DNA of 43,023 nucleotides, from the NCBI RefSeq assembly GCF_000169155.1, contig NZ_AAWL01000009.1, positions 60,001-103,023 on the forward strand, in the 5' to 3' direction. This stretch comes from Thermosinus carboxydivorans Nor1 (lineage in GTDB: Bacteria; Bacillota; Negativicutes; Sporomusales; Thermosinaceae). Below, piece after piece: positions 4,721 through 40,149 of the stretch. Position numbers and translations under genes: made by a program. A model generated the notes under the pieces. It was not told the origin of the DNA. It saw only the letters and a program-made list of their open reading frames with translations, and ran no database searches. Each line of letters begins with the position of its first letter. Position 1 is the stretch's first letter.

Positions 4721-5361
4721 TCAAAACCTTATTTTATATAGCGTCTCGCCGTTTTCAGAGCGCTCTGCGGTGACGGTTATGCCCAGGCGCAGGATTATGC
4801 GGCGGCGCTCTTCGAAGGTGTTTGCCTCGAAAACTTCTGTCGGCGAAACGTCGCTTTCCTTGGCGGCCGGCTCTGGTGCAGATAATATTGCCTGGGCCGC
4901 GTTGATGTCGCTGTTGAGCTTTTGCAGTTCTTTTTCGGCCACTTCCAGGTCGATTGTTCCGTCCGTTACCCACTTTAGAATAGCCGCCTGCCTGGCTTTC
5001 AGTTTTTTTAGCCTTGCCTCGGCCCGGGCCTTTTCTTTGCCGGCGTCACTGGTTTTATTTCTGTCACGGCGAATTCCGCCACTCTTTTTAAACATGTTCA
5101 CTATTTCCTGCCAGACGGCTTCATCGAGTTCCTGGGACGGCACACAACGGCGGTTGTCGCACTCGTACGCATTGACGTATGCACTGCAGACGTAGTAAGC
5201 GTAGTCTTTATTGTTGCGTTTGGGGAAGCGTGTACCGCGCATGGCATAGCCGCACTTTGGACACTTGATAATGCCTGACAGTAGATACTCAAATTTGGTG
5301 TTTCGCTTTGCAGTGACTTTGTTCTGTCGACGGACTTCGGCTGCCTTCTGAAACGTCTCTT
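4682..5361. repeat. Long direct repeat, left copy (680 bp, recombinase 3' end)
   Basis: This stretch recurs at the right edge of the window at a fixed offset of 37,662 bases. I found two differences, at 5189 (G here, C there) and 5219 (T here, C there). Both fall in third codon positions of the recombinase and are synonymous (Val, Lys). The repeat runs to the window edge, so its true length is unknown. Confidence 0.95.
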
Positions 5362-6154
5362 TGTCGATGATTGCTGGCACGTCGATTGACACCCATTCGT
5401 TTACATTTCTTTTTAAAACTTTCCGCTTTTTTTGTCCCACCGTCTTTTGATATTTTTGGAAATACCACTTCGTCCCGGCGTACATCTCGTTTGCAAGTAT
5501 GTGGTCCAGAACCGACAGGCTAAAAGGTTTGCCGCTTCGATTGACAACTCCCATCGCTTTGAGCTGGGCATGGAGCTTCGCGACGCTGTAACGGTTTTCG
5601 GTGTATAGCTTGAAGATAAGCCGGACGATTTTTGCTTCTTCTTCGTTTATAACATATTGTCCAGTATCACGGTCACATATGTAACCGTAAGGGTCCCGGC
5701 CAAACAGAGGCTTACCGGAAAGGACCTTCGCCCGTTTCCCACGCAGGCTGCGCTCACGGATTTTTTCTTTTTCAAATTCCGCGATGGCCCCGCGGATGGA
5801 AAAAAAGAGCCTGCCTTCCGGGCTGGCGTCGTAAGAGCCGGTGATAAATTCAAGTTTCGCCCCGTATTTTTCTATTTCATCGGCAATGATGAGCTGATTG
5901 GTGAGGTTACGGCTGAGTCGGTCAGGGTCATAGACCATGACGGTTTTTATGAGCCCGGCCCGCAGATCGTCGCGCAAGCGCGATAGGGCAGGACGGTCGA
6001 GAAATTCACCGCTGTAGCCGTCGTCTATGTACTCTTTGATATTCGACAGGCCCAGACTGAGAAGCTTCTTGCGACATTGGTTGACCTGGTCCTGGAGAGA
6101 ATAGCCTGTTCTTGCTTGTTCGTCTGTTGAAACTCGGGCGTATATAGCGTGCAT
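4721..6154 (-). CDS. Large serine recombinase (phage integrase)
   Basis: 477 aa, the usual size for large serine integrases. The N-terminal resolvase domain (about 1-145) has YARVSTDEQ with the catalytic Ser9, and GAIAEFEKEKIRERSLRGK near 130 marks its end. The recombinase domain (about 155-260) contains GRDPYGYICD and LANEMYAGTKWYF. A zinc ribbon follows (about 290-345) with CPKCGYAM and later CSAYVNAYECDNRRC, then a Lys/Glu-rich coiled coil (about 370-430). It catalyses attP x attB recombination for integration and, with a directionality factor, excision; no such factor is identifiable here. It is the last gene of the leftward lysogeny operon and lies next to the attachment site. A second copy's 3' end lies at the right window edge. 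Confidence 0.96.
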   Translation of the reverse strand: MHAIYARVSTDEQARTGYSLQDQVNQCRKKLLSLGLSNIKEYIDDGYSGEFLDRPALSRLRDDLRAGLIKTVMVYDPDRLSRNLTNQLIIADEIEKYGAKLEFITGSYDASPEGRLFFSIRGAIAEFEKEKIRERSLRGKRAKVLSGKPLFGRDPYGYICDRDTGQYVINEEEAKIVRLIFKLYTENRYSVAKLHAQLKAMGVVNRSGKPFSLSVLDHILANEMYAGTKWYFQKYQKTVGQKKRKVLKRNVNEWVSIDVPAIIDKETFQKAAEVRRQNKVTAKRNTKFEYLLSGIIKCPKCGYAMRGTRFPKRNNKDYAYYVCSAYVNAYECDNRRCVPSQELDEAVWQEIVNMFKKSGGIRRDRNKTSDAGKEKARAEARLKKLKARQAAILKWVTDGTIDLEVAEKELQKLNSDINAAQAILSAPEPAAKESDVSPTEVFEANTFEERRRIILRLGITVTAERSENGETLYKIRF

Positions 6155-7086: not shown

Positions 7087-7734
7087 TTAATACTTCCGGA
7101 TAGTCTGTTTCACTTTGCCAACAATCCGGATTTTTTTGCGCTCTTCGCCCGTAAAAATTTCCGGCGGGTAGGACGGATTGGCTGATTGGAGGACAATGCT
7201 GTCGCCTTTAAAGTGGACGCGCTTAATCCGCCCTTCCGGCTCAATGTCATCTACGATGACAACGGCCAGGTCTCCAGAATAAACTTCCGGCTGTTCTTTA
7301 ACAAGGGCCAAGTCGCCCGGCAAGATGCCTTCGCCGATCATGCTGTCACCTTTGACTTGCAAAAATATATGCTTTGCACCGTTGACGTCTTTTTTGTCGA
7401 CATACTCATAGCCAAGATGTTCCTCGTACGCTAGGCCGTTGGGGCCGGCCTTTACGGTGCCGACAATGGGGATAGGAACAAAGTTGCTTAAGTCGGCGGG
7501 AATTGCGTCGGGAAAAAGGTCTGTAATGGATGGCTTAGGCTTGTCCCGGCCCAACAGGTAGTCCACCGAGACGCCAAAGAAGTCGGCCAGGCGGGACAGG
7601 GTGGCGTTGTCAGGTTCGCGTCGGTCTATTTCATAATGTGCATATGTACCGCGAGCAATTCCTAATATATCAGCCATTTCTTGCTGGGTTATTCCTTTTT
7701 GCTCTCTTAATGATTTAAGTCTTTCGCCGAGCAT
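7087..7734 (-). CDS. CI-like phage repressor (HTH plus LexA/S24 autoprotease)
   Basis: 215 aa. Residues 1-65 form an XRE-type helix-turn-helix (GITQQEMADILGIARGTYAHYE). The C-terminal half is a LexA/UmuD-like S24 peptidase: an Ala-Gly cleavage site in TVKAGPNG near residue 98, the catalytic Ser in GDSMIGEGI near 131, and the catalytic Lys in GRIKRVHF near 170. It should keep lytic genes off and be inactivated by RecA-stimulated self-cleavage on DNA damage. It is divergent from cro across a 156-base control region with palindromic operators, and is followed by the membrane protein and integrase genes in the same direction. Confidence 0.95.
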   Translation of the reverse strand: MLGERLKSLREQKGITQQEMADILGIARGTYAHYEIDRREPDNATLSRLADFFGVSVDYLLGRDKPKPSITDLFPDAIPADLSNFVPIPIVGTVKAGPNGLAYEEHLGYEYVDKKDVNGAKHIFLQVKGDSMIGEGILPGDLALVKEQPEVYSGDLAVVIVDDIEPEGRIKRVHFKGDSIVLQSANPSYPPEIFTGEERKKIRIVGKVKQTIRKY

Positions 7735-12729: not shown

Positions 12730-12846
12730 AGCGGCGGGCCGGTAGCCCCGGCCTGCTGCCGGTATGGCCGCTAGTTTACGGGGCAAAACGCCGGCTGGCA
12801 GACGCCGGAGTGCCGCCGTTCAAGTCGGCGGGCGGTCTCCATTTTT
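12730..12846. other. Structured GC-rich intergenic region
   Basis: An outer helix AGCGGC/GCCGCT (12730-12735 with 12767-12772) encloses GGCCGG/CCGGCC (12737-12753). A second hairpin CCGCCG/CGGCGG (12813-12831) follows, then CATTTTT. It may be a small RNA, a terminator or part of a replication origin. It shares a short GCAGACGCCGG-like stretch with the structured region at 11865-12232. No ORF with a ribosome site covers it. Confidence 0.45.
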
Positions 12847-17335: not shown

Positions 17336-17704
17336 ATGCTGAAGTTAACGCTCCCGATAGTCCCAAGTGTCAACCACTGCTATAGAAACGTCAGCATCCA
17401 CCGGCGCGTTTTAACGCCGATCGGTAAAGCGTGGCAAGAAAAAGCTCAGTACATAGCAAAAGCAGCGGCCGCAAAACAAGGGTGGCGGTTTTCTAAAAGA
17501 CAAAAATTGGTCATGGAGTATTGGACATACTGGCCGGATTATCGCACCCGAGACGTACACAATCAAGAGAAGCTGCTCTTAGACACGCTGGAAGGCATAC
17601 TCTACGACAACGATAAATGGGTGCTGCCGCGGGCGATGGATTTTGCGGTGGACAAGGTTAATCCGAGGATTGAAATTTTGATTTATCCATTGGAGGGGAG
17701 ATAA
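17336..17704 (+). CDS. RusA-like Holliday junction resolvase
   Basis: 122 aa. Family features: LPIVPSVNHCYR near the N-terminus, then KLVMEYWTYWPDYRTRDVHN with the acidic catalytic cluster, LLDTLEGILYDNDKWV, and VDKVNPRIEILIYP at the end. RusA dimers cut four-way junctions, resolving recombination intermediates before packaging. A TTG two codons earlier is an alternative start. It overlaps the next gene by one base. Confidence 0.85.
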   Translation: MLKLTLPIVPSVNHCYRNVSIHRRVLTPIGKAWQEKAQYIAKAAAAKQGWRFSKRQKLVMEYWTYWPDYRTRDVHNQEKLLLDTLEGILYDNDKWVLPRAMDFAVDKVNPRIEILIYPLEGR

Positions 17705-18639
17705 TGGCAACGACAAAGATAGAGTGGGCCGAGCGGGTATGGAACCCGGTCACAGGCTGCACAAAGATTAGCCCCGGTTGCCAGAATTGCTACGCTGAGC
17801 ACATGGCCCGGCGCCTGGCCGGGCGGTGTGGGTATCCGGCGGAGGAGCCGTTTCGAGTGACCATACATGGGGACAGATTTAATGAGCCTTTGCGTTTTGC
17901 TAAACCACAAAGGTATTTTGTTTGCAGTATGGGCGATCTTTTTCATGCCGACGTACCTGACAACATAGTATATGAAATTTTTGCTGTAATGGCTGATACT
18001 CCTGGGCACACATACATCGTCCTAACAAAACGTCCACAACGGATGAAAGAACTACTAGGCAGACCAGACGCCGCGAATGAAGTATGGAATAGAACAACGT
18101 ACAGTGATTATCCTGGTTGCAAAAAACCCTGGCCTCTACCCAATGTCTGGCTCGGCGTCACTGCAGAAAACCAGCAGGCTGCCGACGAGCGCATACCGAT
18201 ACTGCTCCAGATACCGGCGGCGGTGAGGTTTGTTTCATGCGAGCCTTTGTTGGGACCGGTGGATCTGTATGATTATTTGCAACCAAAGACCAAGACCGCG
18301 TTTTATAATTATGGCGGTCGAGGGCGAGCCATGGAGGTTGTGATCAGAAAAGAACACCTGAACTGGGTCATCTGCGGCGGAGAAACAGGCCCTAACGCCC
18401 GGCCGATGCACCCGGATTGGGTGCGTAGTTTGCGTGACCAGTGCAATGCGGCGGGCGTGCCGTTCCTGTTTAAACAGTGGGGTGAGTGGCGGGAGGCGTG
18501 TCCGCCAGACGATGAGATCTGGAACGGGCATCCACCGACACTGAGGCATGAACACGGAACGTATTTTATCCGCTTGGGCAAAAAACAAGCCGGCCGCCTG
18601 CTGGACGGTGTGGCGTGGGATGAGTTGCCACGTTTCTAA
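17704..18639 (+). CDS. Phage Gp37/Gp68-like protein (DUF5131)
   Basis: 311 aa. The N-terminal IEWAERVWNPVTGCTKISPG followed by CQNCYAEHMARRL is the signature of the family, with a Cys cluster resembling radical-SAM-related proteins. Further conserved stretches are FVCSMGDLFHADVPD near 75, ADTPGHTYIVLTKRP near 98, VWLGVTAENQQAADERIP near 147, CEPLLGPVDL near 180 and ICGGETGPNARPMHPDWVR near 223. The TIM-barrel-like pattern and cysteines suggest an Fe-S or metal enzyme; its reaction is not established. Common in the early or middle region of phages. Confidence 0.85.
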   Translation: MATTKIEWAERVWNPVTGCTKISPGCQNCYAEHMARRLAGRCGYPAEEPFRVTIHGDRFNEPLRFAKPQRYFVCSMGDLFHADVPDNIVYEIFAVMADTPGHTYIVLTKRPQRMKELLGRPDAANEVWNRTTYSDYPGCKKPWPLPNVWLGVTAENQQAADERIPILLQIPAAVRFVSCEPLLGPVDLYDYLQPKTKTAFYNYGGRGRAMEVVIRKEHLNWVICGGETGPNARPMHPDWVRSLRDQCNAAGVPFLFKQWGEWREACPPDDEIWNGHPPTLRHEHGTYFIRLGKKQAGRLLDGVAWDELPRF

Positions 18640-21334: not shown

Positions 21335-21808
21335 GTGGCTAGGGGTAGAGGTAGGCCGACCGAGTACAAGGCAGAATACGCAGAACAGGCATACAAGCTG
21401 TGTCTCTTGGGTGCCACAGACAAGGAAATAGCGGATTTTTTCGGGGTAAATGAAAAGACGTTGAACAACTGGAAGCAAAAGCATCCCGATTTTTTACAGT
21501 CCCTAAAAGAAGGTAAAGAAGAAGCTGACGCGAAAGTCGCCAAAAGTCTATATCATAGGGCGCTTGGTTATAGTCATGAAGCAGTAAAAATAATGCAGTA
21601 TGAGGGTGAAGTAATCCAGGTGCCATACATTGAGCATTATCCGCCTGATACTACAGCCTGCATCTTCTGGCTGAAAAACCGGCAGCCGAAGCTGTGGCGC
21701 GATAAAGTCGAGCAAGAAATAACTGGTCCCGACGGCGGCCCGATCGGCGTAGTAGTGTTGCCTGCTGCTGATTTAGGAGAGGTTCCGCGTGGGGAAGGTA
21801 GCGAATAG
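21335..21808 (+). CDS. Terminase small subunit
   Basis: 157 aa from a GTG preceded by GGGAGGTGATA. The N-terminal DNA-binding HTH (GRGRPTEYKAEYAEQAYKLC, TDKEIADFFGVNEKTLNNW) and the middle KSLYHRALGYSHEAVKI and DTTACIFWLKNRQPKLWRDK segments are typical of the family. It recognises the packaging site and delivers DNA to TerL. First gene of the late operon; overlaps TerL by 20 bases. Confidence 0.92.
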   Translation: MARGRGRPTEYKAEYAEQAYKLCLLGATDKEIADFFGVNEKTLNNWKQKHPDFLQSLKEGKEEADAKVAKSLYHRALGYSHEAVKIMQYEGEVIQVPYIEHYPPDTTACIFWLKNRQPKLWRDKVEQEITGPDGGPIGVVVLPAADLGEVPRGEGSE

Positions 21809-24326
21809 GATACTCTGGCAGCCGAACCCGGGGCCGCAGACGGACTTTTTGCGTCGCACTGAGTTCGAAGTGCTATACGGAGGTGCCGCTGGTGGAGGTA
21901 AAATGCTGCCACTTGACACACCGTTGCCTACGCCGCACGGATGGACGACAATGGGTGACGTGCAAGTTGGTGATGAGCTGTTCGACGAGAGCGGACGAGT
22001 ATGTCGCGTTGTCGCGGTGTTCCCCGTACAGACGCCTGATGAGGCATACCGCTTGACTTTCGACGATGGCGTATCAATTGATGCATGTGGAGACCATTTA
22101 TGGCTTACTTATGACGCCAAAGAGCTTGCCGCGTTGACGCGGCGCGACCCGGTATGGCGGGCTCGGCGTCGTGCAAAGCGACCGAGTCGTGCCAAAGGCA
22201 ACAAGTCGCAGCGTTTTGTTGAGGTGATTACCGCGCGAAATCGTGCTTGTCCGCCGCCTGTCATGCCGGCACCGTCTGGCTCCGTACGTAGTACGCGAGA
22301 AATTGCTCAGACACTTTTGACGCAACACGGGAGACGCAATCATGCCATTCCGGTGGCGATGGCGCTGGAGTTACCGCATGTAGATTTGCCTCTTGACCCT
22401 TATTTACTGGGGTGCTGGTTGGGAGATGGGCATACGCATGCCGGGCGTATTACTACAGCTGACCCTGAAATTGCAGCGGCATACCTACGTGCTGGTTTTG
22501 AGGTTGTACGTTACCATAGTGACGATATTGATTATGGCATTCATGGCTTATCGTCTATTCTGCGGTCATTAGGAGTCCTGGGTGATAAGCATATTCCCGT
22601 ACAATACCTGCGTGCTTCTCGGGAGCAGCGCCTTGCTTTGTTACAGGGACTCATGGACACGGACGGCACGGTGGCGCGTAATTCGGGCGCTGCCGAATTT
22701 ACAACAACGTCTCCGGCTATACGGTGTGGTATGGAAGAGTTGGTGCGGTCCCTCGGATGGAAAGTTCGTGTGCGCGAGGGGCGCGCAAAATTAAACGGCA
22801 TAGATCATGGGCCAAAGTGGACAATGAAATGGATGGCATCCGAACCAGTATTTCGGCTAGAGCGCAAACTTCGGCTGCAGCGCATAGCGACTCGACGTAC
22901 GACGCGATTTCGGTATGTTGTGTCGTGTGACCCGATCGAACCGGTTCCCATGCGTTGCATTGCAGTGGATTCTCAGTCGCATTTATACCTAGCCGGGCGG
23001 GCAATGGTGCCTACACATAACAGCGATGCGCTTGTCATCGAGGCCCTGCGCCAAGTTGCACACCCGCGCTACCGCGCCGTCATCTTTCGCCGGACACTCA
23101 CAGAAGCCAGCGAGCTCATCGACCGTTCGCGGCTGTACTACCCGGCTGCCGGTGGAGTGTGGCGTGAGCAGCAGAAAGAGTGGAAGTTCCCGAGTGGCGC
23201 GATTATTCGCTTCAGGTATCTTGAAAATGTTGGCGACGAGCTTCGCTATCAGGGGCATGAGTATCAGTATATTGCTTTTGATGAGCTCACGCACTTTGAT
23301 GAGCGGCAGTACCTGTACCTGTTGTCCCGGTGTCGGACGAGCGACCCGGCGCTACGCTGTTATGTGCGTGCGGCGTCCAATCCTGGCGGACCTGGGCACC
23401 ACTGGGTGAAGGCGCGCTTTATTGACGTCGCGCCGCCTGGCAAAACATATGTTGACCCGGTGACTGGCTTGACGCGCTGTTTTGTGCCGGCGCGCGTGTT
23501 CGACAATCCCATACTGCTGAGAGCAGACCCGCTATACCTTAAGCGGTTAGAGAGCCTTCCTGAAGCTGAGCGGAAGGCTCTTCTCTTAGGCGACTGGGAC
23601 GCTTTCGCGGGCCAGGTATTCAGTGAGTGGCGGCGGGATGTTCACGTTGTAGAGCCGTTTGCAATTCCTGCTGGCTGGCTGCGCTTCCGAGCGATGGACT
23701 GGGGTTTCTCAAAACCATACTGCATACTGTGGTTTGCAGTTGACTATAATGGTGTTATCTATGTCTACCGCGAGCTATACGGCCTTAAACCAGGCTGCGT
23801 GGACGTCGGCACGCAAGAGACGGCCCGCGAAGTAGCACAGAAAGTTAAAGCTGCGGAAGACTGGAAGAATTTTATCGCCGACGAGGGCGTAAAACTCGAA
23901 ACCCAGTTAAGTGGCGAAAAAATCGCCTACGGTGTCGCCGATCCGGCCTGCTGGGCCAAGACCGGGCACGATGGTCCGAGCATTGCCGAGACGTTTGCCA
24001 GCGAAGGCGTTTTTTGGAAACCGGCTGACAATGACCGTCTACAAGGTAAAATGCAGGTGCATCTGCGCCTGCGTGGCTGGGGACCGGAGCGGCCAGGGTT
24101 AAAGGTGTTTAATACGTGCACTAATCTCATTCGCACCCTGCCGGCGTTGTGTTATGATGCACACCGGCCGGAGGACGTGGATACGACCCAAGAGGACCAT
24201 GCGTATGATGCTTTGCGATACGGTCTTATGTCACGTCCGTGGGCGCCGCCGAAGGAAAAACAAAGAAAACGTGACGCCTGGGCGTGGGATGATGAGGAGA
24301 AAACTACCAGCTACATGTCTGTGTAG
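21789..24326 (+). CDS. Terminase large subunit, interrupted by an intein
   Basis: 845-aa precursor from a GTG preceded by AGGAGAGG; removal of the 373-aa intein leaves 472 aa, a normal TerL length. The N-extein ends in the P-loop GGAAGGGK and the C-extein begins SDALVIEAL, so splicing reassembles the Walker A motif. Later: Walker B YQYIAFDELTHF, the coupling region RAASNPGGPGHHWVK, and the RNase-H-like nuclease domain with AMDWGFSKPYCILWF and GVADPACW. It pumps DNA into proheads with ATP and cuts concatemers. Without splicing the ATPase should be inactive. It also contains a 28-base sequence shared with the scaffold gene. Confidence 0.95.
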   Translation: MGKVANRILWQPNPGPQTDFLRRTEFEVLYGGAAGGGKMLPLDTPLPTPHGWTTMGDVQVGDELFDESGRVCRVVAVFPVQTPDEAYRLTFDDGVSIDACGDHLWLTYDAKELAALTRRDPVWRARRRAKRPSRAKGNKSQRFVEVITARNRACPPPVMPAPSGSVRSTREIAQTLLTQHGRRNHAIPVAMALELPHVDLPLDPYLLGCWLGDGHTHAGRITTADPEIAAAYLRAGFEVVRYHSDDIDYGIHGLSSILRSLGVLGDKHIPVQYLRASREQRLALLQGLMDTDGTVARNSGAAEFTTTSPAIRCGMEELVRSLGWKVRVREGRAKLNGIDHGPKWTMKWMASEPVFRLERKLRLQRIATRRTTRFRYVVSCDPIEPVPMRCIAVDSQSHLYLAGRAMVPTHNSDALVIEALRQVAHPRYRAVIFRRTLTEASELIDRSRLYYPAAGGVWREQQKEWKFPSGAIIRFRYLENVGDELRYQGHEYQYIAFDELTHFDERQYLYLLSRCRTSDPALRCYVRAASNPGGPGHHWVKARFIDVAPPGKTYVDPVTGLTRCFVPARVFDNPILLRADPLYLKRLESLPEAERKALLLGDWDAFAGQVFSEWRRDVHVVEPFAIPAGWLRFRAMDWGFSKPYCILWFAVDYNGVIYVYRELYGLKPGCVDVGTQETAREVAQKVKAAEDWKNFIADEGVKLETQLSGEKIAYGVADPACWAKTGHDGPSIAETFASEGVFWKPADNDRLQGKMQVHLRLRGWGPERPGLKVFNTCTNLIRTLPALCYDAHRPEDVDTTQEDHAYDALRYGLMSRPWAPPKEKQRKRDAWAWDDEEKTTSYMSV
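21903..23021 (+). mobile_element. Class 3-type intein with LAGLIDADG endonuclease (TerL intein)
   Basis: Precursor residues 39-411. Block A reads MLPLDTPLPTPHGWTTMGD, then VGDELFDESG; position 1 is Met rather than Cys/Ser. Block B is GDHLWLTY with His103 and Trp105, block F is RCIAVDSQSHLYL with Cys390, and block G is VPTHN with Thr409, His410 and Asn411; Ser412 is the +1 residue. Trp in block B, Cys in block F and Thr in block G is the WCT signature of class 3 inteins, which need no first-residue nucleophile. The endonuclease has YLLGCWLGDGH (Asp213) and LLQGLMDTDG (Asp292), both catalytic acids intact, so homing may be active. Confidence 0.9.
23875..23902 (+). repeat. 28-bp exact repeat, copy in terminase gene
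   Basis: Identical to 26615-26642 in the scaffold gene and in the same reading frame there, encoding ADEGVKLET in both proteins. Surrounding sequences are unrelated. Confidence 0.9.
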
Positions 24327-24338
24327 GGAGGTGACATA

Positions 24339-26171
24339 GTGACGAGAACAACAGACTTACCGCCTGAGCTAGTGCGCAAACGGAATATGTTTCGTGCGGC
24401 GATTGAGAAAAGCCGGACGTGGCGGCAGGCGGCGCGAAAAGATTATGAGTTTTACTTTGGCAAGCAGTGGGAAGACGCTGACCTGCAGGCGCTCAAAAAG
24501 CAGAAGCGGCCAGCAATCACGATCAACCGCATTAGGCCGCTCATCAATCTCATCTCCGGCTACCAGCGATTAAACCGCTACGAGCCGGATTTCAAACCGC
24601 GCACGGCAGATGACATTGACTTATGTAAAGTAAGAAAAGGCATCACGAAATATATCATGGATAGTTGCCGGTATAATCGCGAGGAAAGCCGCGTGTTTCT
24701 TGACGGCATCATCGGCGGCGTTGGCTGGTTTGAGGTCGGCTACGAATTCGACTATCACGCATTGGATGGCAAGGCGGTGATTAAGCGCGTTAGTCCTTTC
24801 GATATTTATGTCGATCCAGAAAGCCGCGAGCCGGACCTGTCAGACGCGGAGTATATTTGCCGCGCCAAATGGGTGTCAAAGGATGACCTCAAACGCACAT
24901 ACCCTGAGTTTGCCGACGAGATTGAAGCGTTTGCCGAGCGGTACGACCGCGACGAAGAGGAAGAATGCGACGAGGATTTAGAGCCGCTCTGGTACTCGCG
25001 CGAGAAGAAGAAATGCCGCCTGGTTGAAATATGGTACAAGCGGCATACAATGAAAGAGTACTACGTCATTGGACCCGGGCAGATTGTCACGAAAGACGAG
25101 CTGCTGCCGGGCATGATGGTGACGCATAAGTTTCGCGTGCCGCAGACGGAAATTCGCTGCAGTGCAATCATTGGCGATGTTGAGCTGGAGGACGTGCCGT
25201 CGCCGTACCAGCATGGACGGTTTCCGTTTGCGCCGTACTTTGCCTACTATGTCGGCGAAGAGGGAGAAATTCCGGCTGGTGTCGTGCGGGACTTGCAGGA
25301 CATACAGCGCGAACAAAACAAGCGCAGAAGTCAGCTCCTACATCTTATCAACACGATGGCCAACCGTGGATGGCTGTTAAGACGCGGGCAAGAAGATACC
25401 AAGAAAAAGCTATTAGAAAGCGGCAGTACGCCCGGTGTAGTGGTTGAGTACGACACAGACCCGCCAAAGCCGTTCGATAGCACGTCTGTGCCGACGACAT
25501 TTGCCGAGTTTGAACAATTAGGCGACGCGGATTTCAGGCAAATAAGCGGTATAAACGAGGCTATGCTTGGGCAGGAAATACCGTCCGGCACGAGCGGCAG
25601 GGCGATAGAGCTGCGCCAGCGCACAGCCGTGACGCAGGTGGCCGGGCTGTTTGACAACCTGCGGGCAACTAAAGAGATGGTATTGTACCTGCTCTGGGGC
25701 AGCGAAGGTGCTCCTGGCATTATCCCGCAGTACTATACCGAGGAAAAGACGTTCCGCATCATCGGCGAATCTGGCAAAGATGAATTCGTCACGATTAATC
25801 AGCGGCAGCTGGCTGGCTACGACTGGATGGGTAACGCAATATACCGTACGCTTAACGACTTGTCCGTCGGCGAATTTGATATTGTCATTGACGACGTGCC
25901 GGCTACGCCGACGCAGCGGATTGCGCAGTTCTATGCACTCTTAGAACTGGCGAAGTTATTGCCGCCCGGGGCAATACCGGTTGACATGATTATTGATGCC
26001 AGCGATTTCGATAACAAGGAAGAGCTCAAACAGCGCTGGCTTGAGCAGCAGCGCGCAGCGGCGCAAGCTGTGGCAATGAAACAAAGCGGTGCGCCTCCGC
26101 CGGGGCAGCCTGGGCAGCCGGGGATAGTGCCGCAGAGCGCGGCAATTGAAGCAATGCGAGCGGCGCTGTAA
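24339..26171 (+). CDS. P22-like portal protein
   Basis: 610 aa, GTG preceded by GGGAGGTGACA. Matches podovirus P22-type portals: YEFYFGKQWEDADLQALKKQ, RPAITINRIRPLINLISGYQ, IGGVGWFEVGYEFDY, VSPFDIYVDPESREPDLSDA, DLQDIQREQNKRRSQLLH, GINEAMLGQEIPSGTSGRAI. It forms the dodecameric ring at one capsid vertex where TerL docks and the tail attaches. The C-terminal 40 residues are Ala/Gln/Gly/Pro-rich. The P22-like portal is the main evidence for a short-tailed virion. Confidence 0.93.
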   Translation: MTRTTDLPPELVRKRNMFRAAIEKSRTWRQAARKDYEFYFGKQWEDADLQALKKQKRPAITINRIRPLINLISGYQRLNRYEPDFKPRTADDIDLCKVRKGITKYIMDSCRYNREESRVFLDGIIGGVGWFEVGYEFDYHALDGKAVIKRVSPFDIYVDPESREPDLSDAEYICRAKWVSKDDLKRTYPEFADEIEAFAERYDRDEEEECDEDLEPLWYSREKKKCRLVEIWYKRHTMKEYYVIGPGQIVTKDELLPGMMVTHKFRVPQTEIRCSAIIGDVELEDVPSPYQHGRFPFAPYFAYYVGEEGEIPAGVVRDLQDIQREQNKRRSQLLHLINTMANRGWLLRRGQEDTKKKLLESGSTPGVVVEYDTDPPKPFDSTSVPTTFAEFEQLGDADFRQISGINEAMLGQEIPSGTSGRAIELRQRTAVTQVAGLFDNLRATKEMVLYLLWGSEGAPGIIPQYYTEEKTFRIIGESGKDEFVTINQRQLAGYDWMGNAIYRTLNDLSVGEFDIVIDDVPATPTQRIAQFYALLELAKLLPPGAIPVDMIIDASDFDNKEELKQRWLEQQRAAAQAVAMKQSGAPPPGQPGQPGIVPQSAAIEAMRAAL

Positions 26172-33451: not shown

Positions 33452-34687
33452 ATGGGCCTTTTGGATTTTGTTGGCAATATCACGTCCGGTATCGGTAAAT
33501 GGCAGTATGACATGGGAATTGATACGCCGCTGTCGCGCGGGTATTTGATGAGGGAAATGAAAAAGAAAAATTCTCTTGTCGAACCGCTTATTGCCGCTGC
33601 CAAGCGTGACATGTTCGGAAGTATTTCTGCTAATCCTGACTACGATATAAGAAATTCTATACCAAAACCCGAAGGTATAAAAGAAAGAACAGAATCTGCG
33701 GTTATTAAATCAGCGATGCCGGACATTAACTTTGCGCCGCAGTATTCTGACAAGAATAAATTCACGTTCAACGCGGCCGATTACTTGCCTGCTCCGCAAA
33801 ATGGCCTTGCCAGCGCCTTAAACAACGTTAGCCCGATTACCTACAATGCGCCGCTTAGTACGCCGGAACTGATGCGAAAGCACGCCGTGGCGTTCTCGCT
33901 GGCCGGTGTGAAACCGGAAGCCCTGCAGATGGGCATGATGACGCCCGAAGAAAACTACCGTGCTGCGCTTGTTAAGCACAATCTCGCTCTTAGCGCAGCT
34001 GAGGATGCAGAGCTTAGGCGTAAATATGGCAACGACCTTGTTGATAAATTGTATAAAGCTGGGCTGCTCACTAATAAAGCTGTTGAAACCGGAACCAAAT
34101 ACGGTACTGAAAACAATAACCTTGTTGACATTACAAATGAGATTATTGGGAGTTTTGGCGTCCAGAAACCGTTTACCATGGACAAAACGCCTGGGCTTGA
34201 AACGCAAAAAACACAGGCGTATGTGAACAGACAGAACGCAGCAGCTAATGCCAGTGACTCTGTTGCTTGGCGAAACTACAATAAGCCATTTTTTAGTCCC
34301 AATACTGGCGCCGGACAGTACGACAGAACACAAATTAGCCTCGCATTAAAGGATATTAATGCCCACCAACAAGCAGTCAGGGCGGCCATGAGAAACGCCT
34401 TGCCTGGCGAAGATATTGACGAAACGAAACTTCCGACGTATCCTGCGTACGTGCAGGCGCAAAATTATTTGAACGGGGTTAAGCAGTATGGTCCGGCAAA
34501 TAGTCAACCAACGCAAACTAATCCTTATGATGGTATGAGTCCTGTTATGCGCGATTTTGCCGTTGCCTTGAATAATCATATTCAAACGTATGGGGCAGAA
34601 GCAGCTCGGCAGTGGATTAACCAAAATCGTGATGCATTGTTAGCCAAGGGGATTGACCCTGATGTTGCCTTGACGTGGATACCCTAA
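33452..34687 (+). CDS. Ejection (internal virion) protein 2
   Basis: 411 aa, ATG preceded by AAGGAGGTGATA. Helical, Asn/Gln/Ala-rich, with PEENYRAALVKHNLALSAAE and MRNALPGEDIDETKLPTYPA. No family recognised; position between ejection protein 1 and the giant transglycosylase protein suggests a part of the same internal complex. Confidence 0.6.
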   Translation: MGLLDFVGNITSGIGKWQYDMGIDTPLSRGYLMREMKKKNSLVEPLIAAAKRDMFGSISANPDYDIRNSIPKPEGIKERTESAVIKSAMPDINFAPQYSDKNKFTFNAADYLPAPQNGLASALNNVSPITYNAPLSTPELMRKHAVAFSLAGVKPEALQMGMMTPEENYRAALVKHNLALSAAEDAELRRKYGNDLVDKLYKAGLLTNKAVETGTKYGTENNNLVDITNEIIGSFGVQKPFTMDKTPGLETQKTQAYVNRQNAAANASDSVAWRNYNKPFFSPNTGAGQYDRTQISLALKDINAHQQAVRAAMRNALPGEDIDETKLPTYPAYVQAQNYLNGVKQYGPANSQPTQTNPYDGMSPVMRDFAVALNNHIQTYGAEAARQWINQNRDALLAKGIDPDVALTWIP

Positions 34688-34704
34688 TAAAAAGGGGTGA
34701 TAAT

Positions 34705-37700
34705 GTGTTTACTCTTGATGATTTTGCAAGTAAATATTCTGATGAAAACAAGTTGGACAGCCTTGATAGTTTTGCCGCCAAACATTTAGGACCTAAACAG
34801 CCCCAACCGTCGCCGACCATCCCTGCTCCTGAAATCCCGATTGACGTACCGCAGGAAGAACCTGCGCCTGGTTTTTTGACTAACCTGGCGAAAGATATTT
34901 CGCGCATAGGTGCAAGGTATTTAGAAGGCGCAAGGCAGGCGTGGGATGAGGTGCAACGGGCGAATCAGCGGTATGATGCCGTTGCCAGCGACCCCAATGC
35001 TGATCTTACAGACATTGAAGCAGCAAGGTACCAGGCCAATGCCGCGCAGGGCCAGTTTGTCAAAGACGTAGCGCAAACGCCGCTCATGATTGGTGCACTA
35101 GCTGGCGCGCCTGGTGCTGCGGTAGCTGTTGCGCCATTTATTGCAGCTGATATAGCCAATGCGGCGCAAGAAAGGTTTCAACAAGAAGGTGCTTTAGGTG
35201 CAGCTAAGCAGGTGGCCGGTGACGTAACTGGGATAGGACCAGCAATCGAAGAGTTACCGAAGGTGTTTAACCTTGATTACTGGAAACAAGCGTATGAAGA
35301 GCCGGTAACTACAATTGGAAGCACGGCTATGGCGCTGGCTCCGGCTGCGCTCATCGGAAAAGGCGTATATAAAGGTGTAAGTGGTGTTGTAGAAGACAAG
35401 GTTAAAAGCGCGCTCGATGAATTTGACTTTACCAAGTCAGATGAGCTACCAACCAATCCGAACGTAGAGGCGCTGGTTAAGGCTATAGCTGAACAAGAAA
35501 GCGGCGGTGATTATGGCGCCGTTAATCCTGACAGCGGCGCGCGGGGTAAGTTCCAAATCATGCCGGAAAACTGGCCGGAGTGGGCGGAAGAATTCGGGCT
35601 CGGCCGGGATGCGCCAATGACGCCGGAGAACCAGGAATATGTAGCTACGCGAAAAATCCGGCAACTGTTCGACAAATACGGTAACGCCGAGGATGTTGCG
35701 CGGGCATGGTACGCAGGTGAGGGATATGTTGATGCCTTGCGTCGCGGCGAACCGCCCTATTCGCCTGATGTAAGGTTTAACGCTGATGGCATAGCGGACC
35801 CGAACGGACAATACCCATCGGTCAATGAGTATGCGCAGCAAGTGGTCAGTCGTATGGGAAAACCAGGTTTTGCTCCGGATGCTGTAACCGACTATGACCT
35901 TGCTGAAACATGGGTCCGCCCGGCGACAAGGGAAGAGCTTCAGGCTTCTTTACTCGATGCATTGCGCCAAATTGGAGAGCAAAAATGGGATGAGGCGGAG
36001 CAGGCGGCTGCAGAGAGCGCGTTCTGGCGTGATATTCCCTACCATGAAAAAGGCAAATTGGCTGGAGAAGGTCTTGTTTTAGGCGAAGAAAAACCGCAGG
36101 CCAGGATTATTTTGCCTGGCGAAGCAGAAGTAAACCCGGAAGCTATCAAGGTGATTGAAGCGCTCAAAAAACAGGCTGAAATTGATGCGGAGATAGCAAG
36201 AACCAAAGGAGATCCTCGTCAATTTTTAGCTGATGCAATCAAGGCAGGCGATTATTACCGCGCCGCTCGGTGGGCTGAGATTGTCGGCAGTAAAGACCTT
36301 GCTGAAAAATATCGCAAGCTGTGGTGGAAAGAGCAGGGCTTTAAAGATGAACCGGCTATTGATTTAAGCAGGGTAGAACCTACTTTACATGATATACGCC
36401 CGGATATTAAACAGTTTATTGAAGACACCACTCAGAGGATTGCAGCGGATAGGAAAAACGCCCGCCAGGAGTTGCTGAATGCTTTGGAAGCGGTAAAGCA
36501 AAAGGCGTGGGACAATGCTGAAGCTGAAGCCGTTACCTCTCGGATGAACCCCGAAGCAATCGTTTTAACTGAGTATTTTAATACCTATAAAATATCTCCA
36601 GAGGCGTTAGAAAAAGCGCTACGGCGGCGCCAGGAAAAGCTGATTGATGATTATATGTCTGTCCTGCGCAGTCAAATGAAGCAGGGCGTTGAGAACCGGT
36701 CCATGACGCCTGTTTTAGACAAAGCGGGCAATCCAACAGGTGAGTATACTTTTTCGCCCGGATACAGTCGCAATTACCAATGGTATCGCGACATGCTCGA
36801 AGCTAACGGCGGCAAAATGCCTAAAAAAGCTGACCTGGAGTATTGGCTGCGCGAAACAGCTGTTGACCATCTGCGCAATGGCTACCGTGACCCGATGTAT
36901 GGCGAATTGCCGCCTTCAAGCGAATTTGTGAAGATCGAGCAAGCTTTGTCTGGCCTACAAAAGTATCGAAAACAGCTTCCGTTTGAACTGCGCACCTGGG
37001 AGAAAAACAAGGCGATTGATGAGAATGCTTTAGAAAGCGGCGCCGAAGTTGCGGGACTGGTTAATCAGGCTCCGCCCCCACCTGGGATTGAGTATTTACG
37101 CAAACGGAGCAATATGGCGCAAAGCGGCCTGAGTGTGCCGGTAAACAGTCCGCGGCCTGAAACTTCTTCCGGTGTTACTGTGCCTGAAACTATTTCCCGC
37201 AAGCAGATTATGGACAAAATTAACGAGTTATTTACCGCTGTCCGCACTGGCCGTTTGGGTGTTGATGGCGTACTTGGCTGGTTTGACCGCAATTCTGAGG
37301 TTATCCGCACAAAGGGCTATGCCGACTTCCGGGCAATCATGCATGAGATAGGGCATTACCTCGATAAAGGACTTGGCCTGCGTAACGACGCACGTTTTGA
37401 CAATGAGTTAATCAGCGCCGTTCATCGCCGGTTTGGTGATGCCTATGACAATTTACCAGTTGAACGACTCCGTGGAGAAGGCATAGCCGAATTTATCCAT
37501 GACTACACGACAAACAAAGCTAGGGCACAGGCTGAGTTTCCGCAGTATTATGCGGCGTTTGAGAAGCGGTTGAAGAAAGAGCCGGAAATACGCGGCAGGC
37601 TTAAAATAGTCAGCGACATGCTCAAAACGTGGTACAACCAAGCTGCTAAAGACCGCGTAAAAGGTTCCATATCGTTTGGCGACCGCCGGACCGCTTTTGA

Positions 37701-40149
37701 GAAAACGAAGGATGCCGTCAAAAACCCGAAGCAAACTGCTGAGGCTATTGCCGAAAGCGGCAGAGAAATCATTGACAAGGTGTATGACAAGTTTGTCGAT
37801 GAACTCGCGCCGCTTGACCGCATGATGAAAGAGATTGAGAAGCTAACCGGCGAAAAATTGCCATTAGCGCAAGATGTCTTTAAACAGGCATGGCTTGCCA
37901 GGGGCTGGGCTGGAAAGGCGCAAACGCTCATTGAACACGGCATCCCAGAAAAAGGAATACCGTCGCTCAAATCAATCGTGAAGTCAGTTGAAAAGAACAT
38001 TGACGATTTCAGCGCCTACCTTGTAGCGCTCCGCGAGATTGACATGTACCGGATGGAGGAGCAAGGACTTGGTAAGTTTGAACATGCGATTTCTAAAGCT
38101 GACGCTGCTCTCACGGTAGCTGAAGGACGTCAAAGGCCAGAATTTGTTAAGGCCCAGCAGGAGCTTGTTAAATTCCAAAACCACCTGCTGGATATTTTGG
38201 TTGATGCCGGCATAAAAGATCGTGCTTCAGTAGAAATAATGAAAACTAAGTGGCCGAACTATGTGCCGTTCTTTCGGGAGTTTGATGAAGCGGCAATTGA
38301 GAAGTTTTTGAGCGGCAAAGGTTTCGGCAACGTATCTGACCCGATTAAAAAGCTCAAAGGAAGCACGCGGGACATCATCAACCCGCTGGAAAGCATCGTA
38401 AAGAACACGTACCTATTCATCAACCTGGCAGAACGTAACCGCGTGGCCAGGTTGTTTGTTGATTTGGCACAGAAGCCAGGATTGGGTAAGCTTATCGAAG
38501 AAGTATCTGGTCCGGCATCGTCAAAAGACAGTACATTTGCTGTATGGGACAAAGGCAAAAAACGAGTGTTTCAAACAACGCCGGAACTGTACCGGGCGAT
38601 TATGCTGCTTGACCGTGAAGCGGCTGGAGTTATTGAAAAAATCCTCTCGATTCCTGCTGGTTGGCTGCGTGCCGGCGCGGTGTTGTCACCGGAGTTCATA
38701 GTCCGCAATCCCGTGAGAGATGCGCACTCAGCGTTCATTTATTCCAAGTACGGCTTTATTCCGGTGATAGACACCTTCCGGGGCTTGGCCCATGTCCTCA
38801 AAAAAGATGACCTGTACTGGGAATACATGAATAGCGGCGCAGCTCACTCGACAATGGTAAGCCTTGACCGTGACTATCTTGCCAAGAACTTGCGCGAAAT
38901 TATGTCTAAGCCAGGATACCAAAAATTTATTGCGCCGCTTAATCCCAAAACTTACATTGATATTCTCCGGGCGTTTTCGGAAACTCTGGAAATGGGCACT
39001 CGTGTCGCTGAATACGAGAACGCCAGGCGCGGTTACAACGGCGTGATAAACAGATTGTTCAGTAACAAACGCACGCAGCGCAGTATGGAGGAAGCAGCTT
39101 TAGCGGCGCGTGACATTACTCTTGACTTTAGCCGGGCTGGTACGGTGGGCAAAAAGATTAACAAGGTTGTTGCTTTTTGGAATGCGACAATCCAGGGCAT
39201 GGACAAAATGATACGTGCCTTCAAAGAAGACCCAGTTACTACGTCAGCGAAGGTGTTCATGTCGGTTACGCTGCCGTCGATCGTGCTATGGTACTTAAAC
39301 AAAGACGATCCACGCTACCAAGAACTGCCCCAATGGCAGAAAGATTTGTTTTGGATTATCCCGGCCAAAGATACTCTTATTCGCATTCCCAAGCCTTTTG
39401 AAGTCGGAATTCTTTTTGGCACATCGGTGGAGCGGATGCTTGACTGGATGTATAAAAAAGACCCGAACGCATTTAAGGGGTACGGGAAAACAGTCTGGGA
39501 TGCTATGGTGCCTGGCTGGATGCCGACAGCTTTGCTGCCAATTGTCGAGTGGACGTCGAATTATTCATATTTCATGGAGCGCAACATTGTGCCGCCGAGC
39601 CAAGAAAAACTGCCGCCAAAGCTGCAGTATGGACCAAATACCTCAGCTATTGGCAAATGGATAGGCGAACATGCTATAACTCCATGGACACCGCAGGGAG
39701 TATCGCCGGCAAAAGTAGATAATACCATTCGTGGCTATACCGGCGGCCTTGGTGGACTGGCTATGACGCTAGGTGATTTGGTGGCCGGCGAATTTGATAA
39801 GCGTCCGTCATTGAAGTGGACGGAGTACCCTGGTATTCGTGCTTTTACGGCTACGCCATACAGGAGCAGCAAGTCAGTGCAGGATTTCTACGACCGCTGG
39901 AACGAAGTGCAGCAAATGTACAACGAGTACAAGCAGACAGGCGTAAAACCTGCCGGACTTGACGGAGCAGAGTACCGGCGGCTGCAAGGTGTTAATGAGA
40001 TTATGCAAAAAATCAACAAGCGAGAGAAGGAAATCCTTTCTGATAAGAACATGAGCAGCGAGGAAAAGAGGAGCCGTCTGGATCAGCTCAATGTTATGAA
40101 AACCAATTACGCCAGGATTGCCCTGGGCAGACAAAAAATAGCGCAGTAA
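34705..40149 (+). CDS. Giant ejection protein with lytic transglycosylase and zincin-like motifs
   Basis: About 1814 aa from the GTG that follows AAAAAGGGGTGAT; a GTG ten codons earlier overlaps the previous gene and has no site. Residues about 250-355 are a soluble lytic transglycosylase domain (ALVKAIAEQESGGDYGAV with the catalytic Glu, GARGKFQIMPENWPEW, EDVARAWYAGEGYVDALR) that opens peptidoglycan during DNA entry. HEIGH at about 880 with GEGIAEF about 45 residues later forms a gluzincin-like zinc peptidase signature. Residues about 1250-1600 (LFVDLAQKPGLGKLIEEV, VLSPEFIVRNPVRDAHSAF, FEVGILFGTSVERMLDW) resemble the large polyvalent protein-associated domains of phage ejection proteins. Long coiled helices fill the rest. 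Confidence 0.85.
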   Translation: MFTLDDFASKYSDENKLDSLDSFAAKHLGPKQPQPSPTIPAPEIPIDVPQEEPAPGFLTNLAKDISRIGARYLEGARQAWDEVQRANQRYDAVASDPNADLTDIEAARYQANAAQGQFVKDVAQTPLMIGALAGAPGAAVAVAPFIAADIANAAQERFQQEGALGAAKQVAGDVTGIGPAIEELPKVFNLDYWKQAYEEPVTTIGSTAMALAPAALIGKGVYKGVSGVVEDKVKSALDEFDFTKSDELPTNPNVEALVKAIAEQESGGDYGAVNPDSGARGKFQIMPENWPEWAEEFGLGRDAPMTPENQEYVATRKIRQLFDKYGNAEDVARAWYAGEGYVDALRRGEPPYSPDVRFNADGIADPNGQYPSVNEYAQQVVSRMGKPGFAPDAVTDYDLAETWVRPATREELQASLLDALRQIGEQKWDEAEQAAAESAFWRDIPYHEKGKLAGEGLVLGEEKPQARIILPGEAEVNPEAIKVIEALKKQAEIDAEIARTKGDPRQFLADAIKAGDYYRAARWAEIVGSKDLAEKYRKLWWKEQGFKDEPAIDLSRVEPTLHDIRPDIKQFIEDTTQRIAADRKNARQELLNALEAVKQKAWDNAEAEAVTSRMNPEAIVLTEYFNTYKISPEALEKALRRRQEKLIDDYMSVLRSQMKQGVENRSMTPVLDKAGNPTGEYTFSPGYSRNYQWYRDMLEANGGKMPKKADLEYWLRETAVDHLRNGYRDPMYGELPPSSEFVKIEQALSGLQKYRKQLPFELRTWEKNKAIDENALESGAEVAGLVNQAPPPPGIEYLRKRSNMAQSGLSVPVNSPRPETSSGVTVPETISRKQIMDKINELFTAVRTGRLGVDGVLGWFDRNSEVIRTKGYADFRAIMHEIGHYLDKGLGLRNDARFDNELISAVHRRFGDAYDNLPVERLRGEGIAEFIHDYTTNKARAQAEFPQYYAAFEKRLKKEPEIRGRLKIVSDMLKTWYNQAAKDRVKGSISFGDRRTAFEKTKDAVKNPKQTAEAIAESGREIIDKVYDKFVDELAPLDRMMKEIEKLTGEKLPLAQDVFKQAWLARGWAGKAQTLIEHGIPEKGIPSLKSIVKSVEKNIDDFSAYLVALREIDMYRMEEQGLGKFEHAISKADAALTVAEGRQRPEFVKAQQELVKFQNHLLDILVDAGIKDRASVEIMKTKWPNYVPFFREFDEAAIEKFLSGKGFGNVSDPIKKLKGSTRDIINPLESIVKNTYLFINLAERNRVARLFVDLAQKPGLGKLIEEVSGPASSKDSTFAVWDKGKKRVFQTTPELYRAIMLLDREAAGVIEKILSIPAGWLRAGAVLSPEFIVRNPVRDAHSAFIYSKYGFIPVIDTFRGLAHVLKKDDLYWEYMNSGAAHSTMVSLDRDYLAKNLREIMSKPGYQKFIAPLNPKTYIDILRAFSETLEMGTRVAEYENARRGYNGVINRLFSNKRTQRSMEEAALAARDITLDFSRAGTVGKKINKVVAFWNATIQGMDKMIRAFKEDPVTTSAKVFMSVTLPSIVLWYLNKDDPRYQELPQWQKDLFWIIPAKDTLIRIPKPFEVGILFGTSVERMLDWMYKKDPNAFKGYGKTVWDAMVPGWMPTALLPIVEWTSNYSYFMERNIVPPSQEKLPPKLQYGPNTSAIGKWIGEHAITPWTPQGVSPAKVDNTIRGYTGGLGGLAMTLGDLVAGEFDKRPSLKWTEYPGIRAFTATPYRSSKSVQDFYDRWNEVQQMYNEYKQTGVKPAGLDGAEYRRLQGVNEIMQKINKREKEILSDKNMSSEEKRSRLDQLNVMKTNYARIALGRQKIAQ

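Follow-up and report, generated by a model that had tools for sequence, protein, structure and literature searches.

Class 3 inteins are defined by the absence of a nucleophile at their first position (A:1) and by a tryptophan at B:12, a cysteine at F:4 and a threonine at G:5, the WCT triplet (PMC5050341, PMC3196547). The lack of the position 1 nucleophile is also described in PMC7891396, which counts 1,701 class 3 inteins, 82.5% of them with LAGLIDADG motifs. Solved class 3 structures come from mycobacterial DnaB proteins, MchDnaB1 of M. chimaera (6rix and 6riy) and DnaBi1 of M. smegmatis (6bs8), with chains of 139-146 residues. DnaBi1 is inserted in a P-loop, is followed by Ser+1, and lacks an endonuclease (PMC6195587). 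The large terminase subunit, TerL, is the commonest intein host in mycobacteriophages. Inteins of the TerL1-a group are located between the P-loop lysine and threonine of terminase_1-type TerL1 proteins, and the inteins of mycobacteriophage TerL6 proteins sit in the C-motif. All five TerL inteins tested, TerL1-a (Lys/Thr) not being among them, spliced with the ligated extein as the main product, and two TerL inteins cut inteinless partner alleles (PMC5050341).

The window analyzed here, the whole 43,023-nucleotide stretch from Thermosinus carboxydivorans Nor1, contains an interrupted TerL gene (21789-24326, plus strand; stop codon included), which starts with GTG and encodes a precursor of 845 residues. 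The gene is preceded by that of the terminase small subunit (21335-21808, plus strand; phrog_309, E 1.5e-62) and followed by that of a P22-like portal protein (24339-26171, plus strand; PF16510, E 1.2e-144). The product of the interrupted gene matches the Terminase_6N family (PF03237, E 1.1e-8) and no other terminase family of Pfam up to an E-value of 1. PHROG terminase large subunit families match it with a best E-value of 1.7e-54. The window bears prophage marks: a serine recombinase (4721-6154, minus strand), an S24-type repressor (7087-7734, minus strand), and head genes downstream. A 38,139-bp viral contig from IMG/VR (L001) carries the same stretch, with a 100% identical intein. The window is a part of a 2.89-Mb genome in 49 contigs. 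The P-loop of the DnaB helicase encoded in the window, AQTGKGKT, is uninterrupted and thus holds no second intein.

The Walker A motif of the terminase is split between GGAAGGGK (residues 31-38) and the serine that completes it. The 38-residue N-extein (21789-21902) ends with GGAAGGGK, the in-frame insertion of 373 residues extends from Met1 to Asn373 (21903-23021), and the 434-residue C-extein (23022-24323, all on the plus strand) begins with Ser+1 and continues from precursor residue 412 as SDAL. The original prediction, made from the sequence, had placed an in-frame insertion of 373 residues after Lys38 and expected a spliced TerL of 472 residues (845 minus 373); both agree with the reading frame. 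The insertion, located in the Walker A loop of a prophage TerL, is very probably a class 3 intein of full length that carries its own LAGLIDADG homing endonuclease.

The best phmmer matches of the insertion among PDB sequences are the class 3 inteins 6rix (E 3.9e-24), 6riy (E 2.1e-23), and 6bs8 (E 4.2e-22). The alignments extend over 73-76 residues at the N-terminus and over 27-48 residues at the C-terminus, where they take in the Arg-Cys pair and the TH(N) end, and the resemblance, judged from these scores, is far beyond chance. Residue 1 is a methionine and thus provides no A:1 nucleophile. Block B contains His65 (B:10) and Trp67 (B:12; 22095-22103, plus strand), block F contains Met350, Arg351, and the catalytic Cys352 (F:4; 22950-22958, plus strand), and block G ends with Thr371 (G:5), the penultimate His372, and the terminal Asn373 (23013-23021, plus strand), followed by Ser+1. 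Trp67, Cys352, Thr371, and Asn373 correspond to W105, C390, T409, and N411 in the precursor numbering of the original prediction, and the WCT residues are in register with those of 6rix, 6bs8, and 78 other inteins.

We surveyed viral contigs for relatives and obtained 88 loci with 79 distinct inteins, including the one studied here. One scan of this survey kept 80 of 584 confirmed stretches, namely the best ones, and the set therefore represents the closest relatives and not all of them. A part of the conservation of His65, Trp67, and Asp254 follows from the scan patterns H[LQ]WLTYD and GLMDTDG, which leave that of Cys352, Thr371, and Asn373 unaffected. Among these closest relatives (best 80 of 584), His65 and Trp67, which the patterns partly cover, occur in 79 of 79 inteins, as do Cys352, Thr371, and Asn373, and His372 occurs in 77 of 79. 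The N-end was one residue out of register in two inteins (L046 and L048) and later in a third (L135), and was shifted by hand. An apparent loss of the tryptophan in L083 and L096 was a gap of the pairwise alignment; the residue is present in the multiple alignment. Sequence matches, multiple alignment, and predicted fold support the assignment to class 3 and to the Walker A site. A class 1-like intein, the first step of which is independent of the block F cysteine, is extremely improbable here: class 1 inteins with a cysteine at F:4 are described (PMC3196547), but Met1 is incapable of the class 1 acyl shift, the WCT triplet is complete, and the nearest solved relatives belong to class 3.

The AlphaFold2 model of the intein, built on an alignment of 56 inteins, has a pLDDT of 96.6 and a pTM of 0.92, with no residue below a pLDDT of 70. 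The model has a HINT fold, with TM-scores normalized by target length of 0.81-0.84 to the class 3 structures. In a Foldseek search of the PDB, PI-SceI ranks first (E 1.9e-20) and is followed by other endonuclease-bearing inteins, and 6rix, 6riy, and 6bs8 appear from rank 17 onward. The corresponding TM-score to PI-SceI is 0.60-0.64. The root-mean-square deviations of the structural alignments, which span both domains, are large, at 8.5-13.7 Å to the class 3 chains and 6.5-8.4 Å to PI-SceI. The ranking and the TM-scores together indicate that the splicing domain is class 3-like and that the middle part is a LAGLIDADG endonuclease.

Matches to LAGLIDADG_3 (PF14528, E 1e-7) and Hom_end (PF05204, E 3.4e-5) are located inside the insertion. 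The first LAGLIDADG motif, YLLGCWLGDG with Asp175 (22401-22430, plus strand), retains its aspartate in 77 of the 79 closest relatives (best 80 of 584), and the second one, LLQGLMDTDG with Asp254 (22638-22667, plus strand), in 79 of 79, GLMDTDG being one of the scan patterns. Lys229 (22587-22589, plus strand), which we take to be the block D lysine of the endonuclease, is kept in all 79 of these relatives. In a wider set of 177 inteins, described below, Asp175 is present in 166, Asp254 in 174, and Lys229 in 176. The two acidic motifs and the matching fold, with PI-SceI as the top hit, agree with the earlier expectation of an intact endonuclease. A decayed intein that has lost splicing and left the prophage without a working terminase is very improbable, even if prophage sequences could be under relaxed selection, as neither the known catalytic residues nor the two endonuclease motifs show any loss, the reading frame runs open through 845 codons, and every residue of the model has a pLDDT of at least 70.

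From this anatomy, and by analogy to characterized class 3 inteins, we infer splicing, endonuclease cleavage, and the target of the cleavage. His65, Trp67, and Thr371 would set up the active site, and Cys352 would attack the Lys38-Met1 peptide bond, giving a branched thioester. The N-extein would then pass to Ser+1, and cyclization of Asn373 would release the intein. The exteins would be joined as GGAAGGGK-S, restoring the ATP site of the motor in a TerL of 472 residues. At the conserved codons of the P-loop, the endonuclease would cut alleles that lack the intein, which, as we propose, could spread the element between distantly related terminases.

Published work already covers class 3 inteins, inteins in TerL, and the present junction, and the intein therefore belongs to a known kind. 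It shares the splicing fold, in the model, and the WCT residues with MchDnaB1 and DnaBi1, and the P-loop position and Ser+1 with DnaBi1; however, its host is TerL instead of DnaB, it is 373 residues long, and it contains the LAGLIDADG domain that DnaBi1 lacks (PMC6195587). Closer in host and position is the intein in TerL (gp8) of mycobacteriophage Eureka, with the junction ARKNGK/A...THN/T, which likewise lies in the P-loop between lysine and threonine or serine. The Eureka intein is about 36% identical to that of the prophage and has the WCT residues, Asp175, Lys229, and Asp254, but carries Cys48 and Ser62 in place of Ala48 and Cys62. Judged by its junction, Eureka probably belongs to the TerL1-a group. 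The prophage intein, with its junction GGAAGGGK/S, shares the P-loop Lys-Ser/Thr insertion site of TerL1-a inteins; however, these are described in terminase_1-type hosts (PMC5050341), whereas the prophage TerL is of the Terminase_6N type (PF03237). Because the site is the same but the type of terminase differs, we do not file the intein in the TerL1-a group. Its P-loop position in a Terminase_6-type TerL also differs from the C-motif position of the mycobacteriophage TerL6 inteins (PMC5050341). The TerL intein of Clavibacter phage CMP1 (GQ241246), with the P-loop junction SCNGVGK/D...THN/T, is about 38% identical and shares the WCT and endonuclease residues, but differs in having Asp1, Ser48, Ser62, and Thr350. 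Three inteins of metagenomic phage TerLs from IMG/VR (L028, L030, and L032) have the junction GGAAGGGK/...THN/SDALLM, are 53-59% identical, and all contain Cys62. Their first residues are Gln, Gln, and Met, respectively, and the C-exteins of their hosts are only 36-39% identical to that of the prophage TerL. The intein thus adds one more class 3 member at a well-used site, and shows clearly that a single intein family is present at the same P-loop in terminases that have diverged widely.

Scans with the C-extein identified 17 TerL loci, one of which (L011) is the same prophage. In the other 16 TerLs, fetched by their C-extein similarity, the Walker A region is uninterrupted in every case. Nine of the 16 read GGAAGGGK-S at the DNA level, two of them (L013 and L025) being identical there. 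The nearest intein-free TerL (L012) is 60% identical to that of the prophage; others include those of Butyricicoccus contigs (L024-L027, 47-48%) and of two similar viral contigs (L013 and L014, 48%). All of these intein-free TerLs come from other phages and are at most 60% identical. In a genome of the same genus (G001), neither search gave a match at an E-value of 0.001, and hence no close intein-free allele was found there. A tblastn search of 50,697 phage records detected relatives in 745 of them, every one under 60% identity.

The inteins were compared with their hosts in 27 TerLs with GGGK before the intein and a C-extein of at least 200 residues; inteins at other sites and those with shorter C-exteins were excluded. 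In this comparison, in which three of the TerLs are mutually near-identical and contig ends may have truncated some C-exteins, intein identity is 43-59% and C-extein identity 24-39%. By domain, the splicing part is 37-67% and the endonuclease part 43-58% identical. Since the closest TerLs are intein-free and the closest inteins reside in distant TerLs, we interpret the distribution as the footprint of horizontal homing, with transfer into a conserved stretch of codons. Among the 77 clusters of the first survey (closest relatives, best 80 of 584), lysine is at position -1 in 73, Gly-Lys precedes the intein in 66, and +1 is serine or threonine in all 77. In the wider set, lysine is at -1 in 150 of 177 and Gly-Lys in 132, and the +1 residue is threonine in 117, serine in 59, and cysteine in one.

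The less usual feature of the intein is the set of residues lining its active site. The codon of Cys62 (22086-22088, plus strand) occupies block B position 7, which is an aspartate in the solved DnaB class 3 inteins. According to PMC7891396, class 3 inteins generally have no conserved residue at this position (N3:7), which is Gly or Asp in characterized members and Ser in the AceL NrdHF intein. As cysteine differs from these residues, homology by itself does not prove activity. For DnaBi1, Asp62 is described and Cys48 is called non-conserved but essential (PMC6195587), and DXXH is given as a class 3 motif (PMC12245125). The 6bs8 intein has Cys48, Asp62, and, as placed by the phmmer alignment, Val350, whereas the prophage intein has Ala48, Cys62, and Met350, the latter located two residues before the catalytic Cys352.

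Two further scans and named phages extended the set to 252 loci, of which 227 were near-complete and 184 distinct. Removal of one intein containing X (L283) and of one in which Gln-Gln took the place of His-Asn at the aligned C-end (L207) left 182, or 177 after clustering at 90%; Asn373 is present in 177 of 177 only once the exception L207 is dropped. One added scan used patterns that contain Met350 or Cys62, and the counts from all 177 inteins include this biased scan. In them, Cys48 and Asp62 occur without Met350 in 69, Cys62 and Met350 without Cys48 in 56, and other combinations in 52; Cys48 together with Cys62 is observed twice against 27 expected. Because of the bias, the cleaner count omits the loci of that scan and comprises 124 inteins, with 69 in the first state, 18 in the second, and 37 in others. 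Met350 is found in none of the 79 inteins with Cys48 and in 28 of the 45 without it. One of the six patterns of the first relative scan also ends in Met350, which affects at most nine loci (L001-L009). The solved DnaB class 3 structures are in the first state, and the prophage intein is in the second. In APC-corrected mutual information over 51,040 pairs of well-filled columns, again with the biased scan included, the pair 48-350 ranks 1st, 62-350 10th, 48-62 12th, 1-350 20th, and 1-62 69th. Residues 48 and 62 are located on successive strands of the predicted model (48-53 and 58-62), which makes their contact plausible.

To control for relatedness, we used trees built without the tested columns. 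The states at these columns change 11-22 times, and on supported branches the pairs almost never oppose the pattern. For Cys48 with Asp62, 6.7 of 9 pairs go the same way and 0.0 the other way under the simpler model (median p 0.0156), and 5.2 versus 0.0, 5.1 versus 0.1, and 4.5 versus 0.0, each of 7, under the default model (median p 0.0625 each). The pairs Cys62-Cys48, Cys62-Met350, and Cys48-Met350 give median p-values of 0.06-0.25 with the same control. The control pair, Cys48 with Cys34, goes both ways (1.3 versus 1.0 of 7; median p 1). The coupling of residues 48, 62, and 350 is consistent in direction but not significant in most of the relatedness-controlled runs, and is therefore suggestive only. 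As the raw counts are strong but the controlled p-values mostly lie at 0.06-0.25, we do not regard the two-state design as demonstrated. We speculate, with somewhat less than even confidence, that class 3 inteins fall into two alternative designs of the active site, and that the prophage intein has the one with Cys62 and Met350, in which the second thiol, in DnaBi1 required for splicing and the redox partner of the catalytic cysteine, has moved to the neighboring strand, the N-junction is activated by CxxH instead of DxxH, and splicing may have a redox response of its own. The open-licence class 3 intein literature, in the parts searched, contains no description of the alternation and no biochemistry for the Cys62 and Met350 design. 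If two designs exist, the role of the second class 3 cysteine becomes a testable question, as does whether the first step of splicing is tuned differently in CxxH inteins, and the second design would draw attention to class 3 inteins that differ from those solved, maybe useful in protein engineering.

Residue 62 also bears on the suggestion of the original prediction that splicing could act as a switch for packaging. According to this explanation, the intein is a post-translational switch, and splicing is held until a redox, temperature, or metal cue, which times the formation of active TerL and packaging. In the class 3 DnaBi1 of M. smegmatis, oxidation leads to a Cys48-Cys118 disulfide that blocks splicing (PMC6195587), and conditional splicing is thus possible in principle; TerL constructs also showed slightly more visible precursor in an oxidizing strain (PMC5050341). 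In the prophage intein, the redox partner Cys48 is replaced by an alanine, although Cys62, which the predicted fold places on the strand beside that of position 48, might act alike. However, the five TerL inteins placed in a reporter spliced readily, with precursor readily visible for one of them (PMC5050341), and homing alone explains why the inteins occur sporadically at a single conserved site of diverged TerLs. A packaging switch is therefore unsupported in the present analysis, and we consider it improbable.

Larger first residues (Met, Gln, and Leu) are commoner with Cys62 in raw counts; with relatedness controlled, 2.6 of 11 pairs go the same way and 1.0 the other way (median p 0.625), which gives the link no support. 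Met1 had been considered one of few residues seen at this position, which the relatives do not bear out. Residue 1 of the 79 distinct inteins of the first survey (best 80 of 584) is Ala in 38, Leu in 16, Met in 7, Gln in 6, Gly in 5, Glu, Arg, and Pro in 2 each, and Asp in 1. The 124 clusters outside the biased scan have Ala in 79, Leu in 13, Pro in 9, Met in 7, Gln and Gly in 5 each, and Glu, Arg, and Asp in 2 each. In all 177, with the biased scan included, the counts are Ala 92, Leu 21, Gln 19, Met 18, Pro 9, Gly 6, Arg 5, Glu 4, Asp 2, and Cys 1. Methionine is one of the usual first residues among the class 3 relatives.

The TerL P-loop intein of the viral contig IMGVR_UViG_3300037587_000506 (locus L163) carries the WCT residues and has Cys as its residue 1 (GGAAGGGK|CLGL), and therefore combines both possible first nucleophiles in one intein. 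The aligned C-end of a class 3-like intein from IMGVR_UViG_3300047160_005493 (L207) reads PTQQ followed by Cys, whereas the usual end among the relatives is THN followed by Ser or Thr. Judged from its sequence, the L207 intein is possibly a terminal Gln variant. A class 3-like intein of G037, a genome of the same class as the source, was recovered in three pieces (G037:C12:96164-97179; L107, L110, and L111) and contains one internal TGA. This intein may be degenerate.

The prophage early region of the window encodes a DUF5131 protein (17704-18639, + strand; PF07505, E 6.6e-99), which bears a weak likeness to radical SAM mobile pair protein A, with an E of 7e-15, below the cut-off. ARAGORN places a tRNA at 12766-12841 (+ strand), giving it a four-base anticodon and leaving its type undecided; this call is probably false, since the predicted tRNA overlaps an ORF with a start at 12810. 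The virion region encodes an 1824-aa protein (34675-40149, + strand), the C-terminal half of which matches phrog_9854, a family of unknown function (E 1e-167). A weak endolysin-like stretch is located at about residues 264-392 of the protein.
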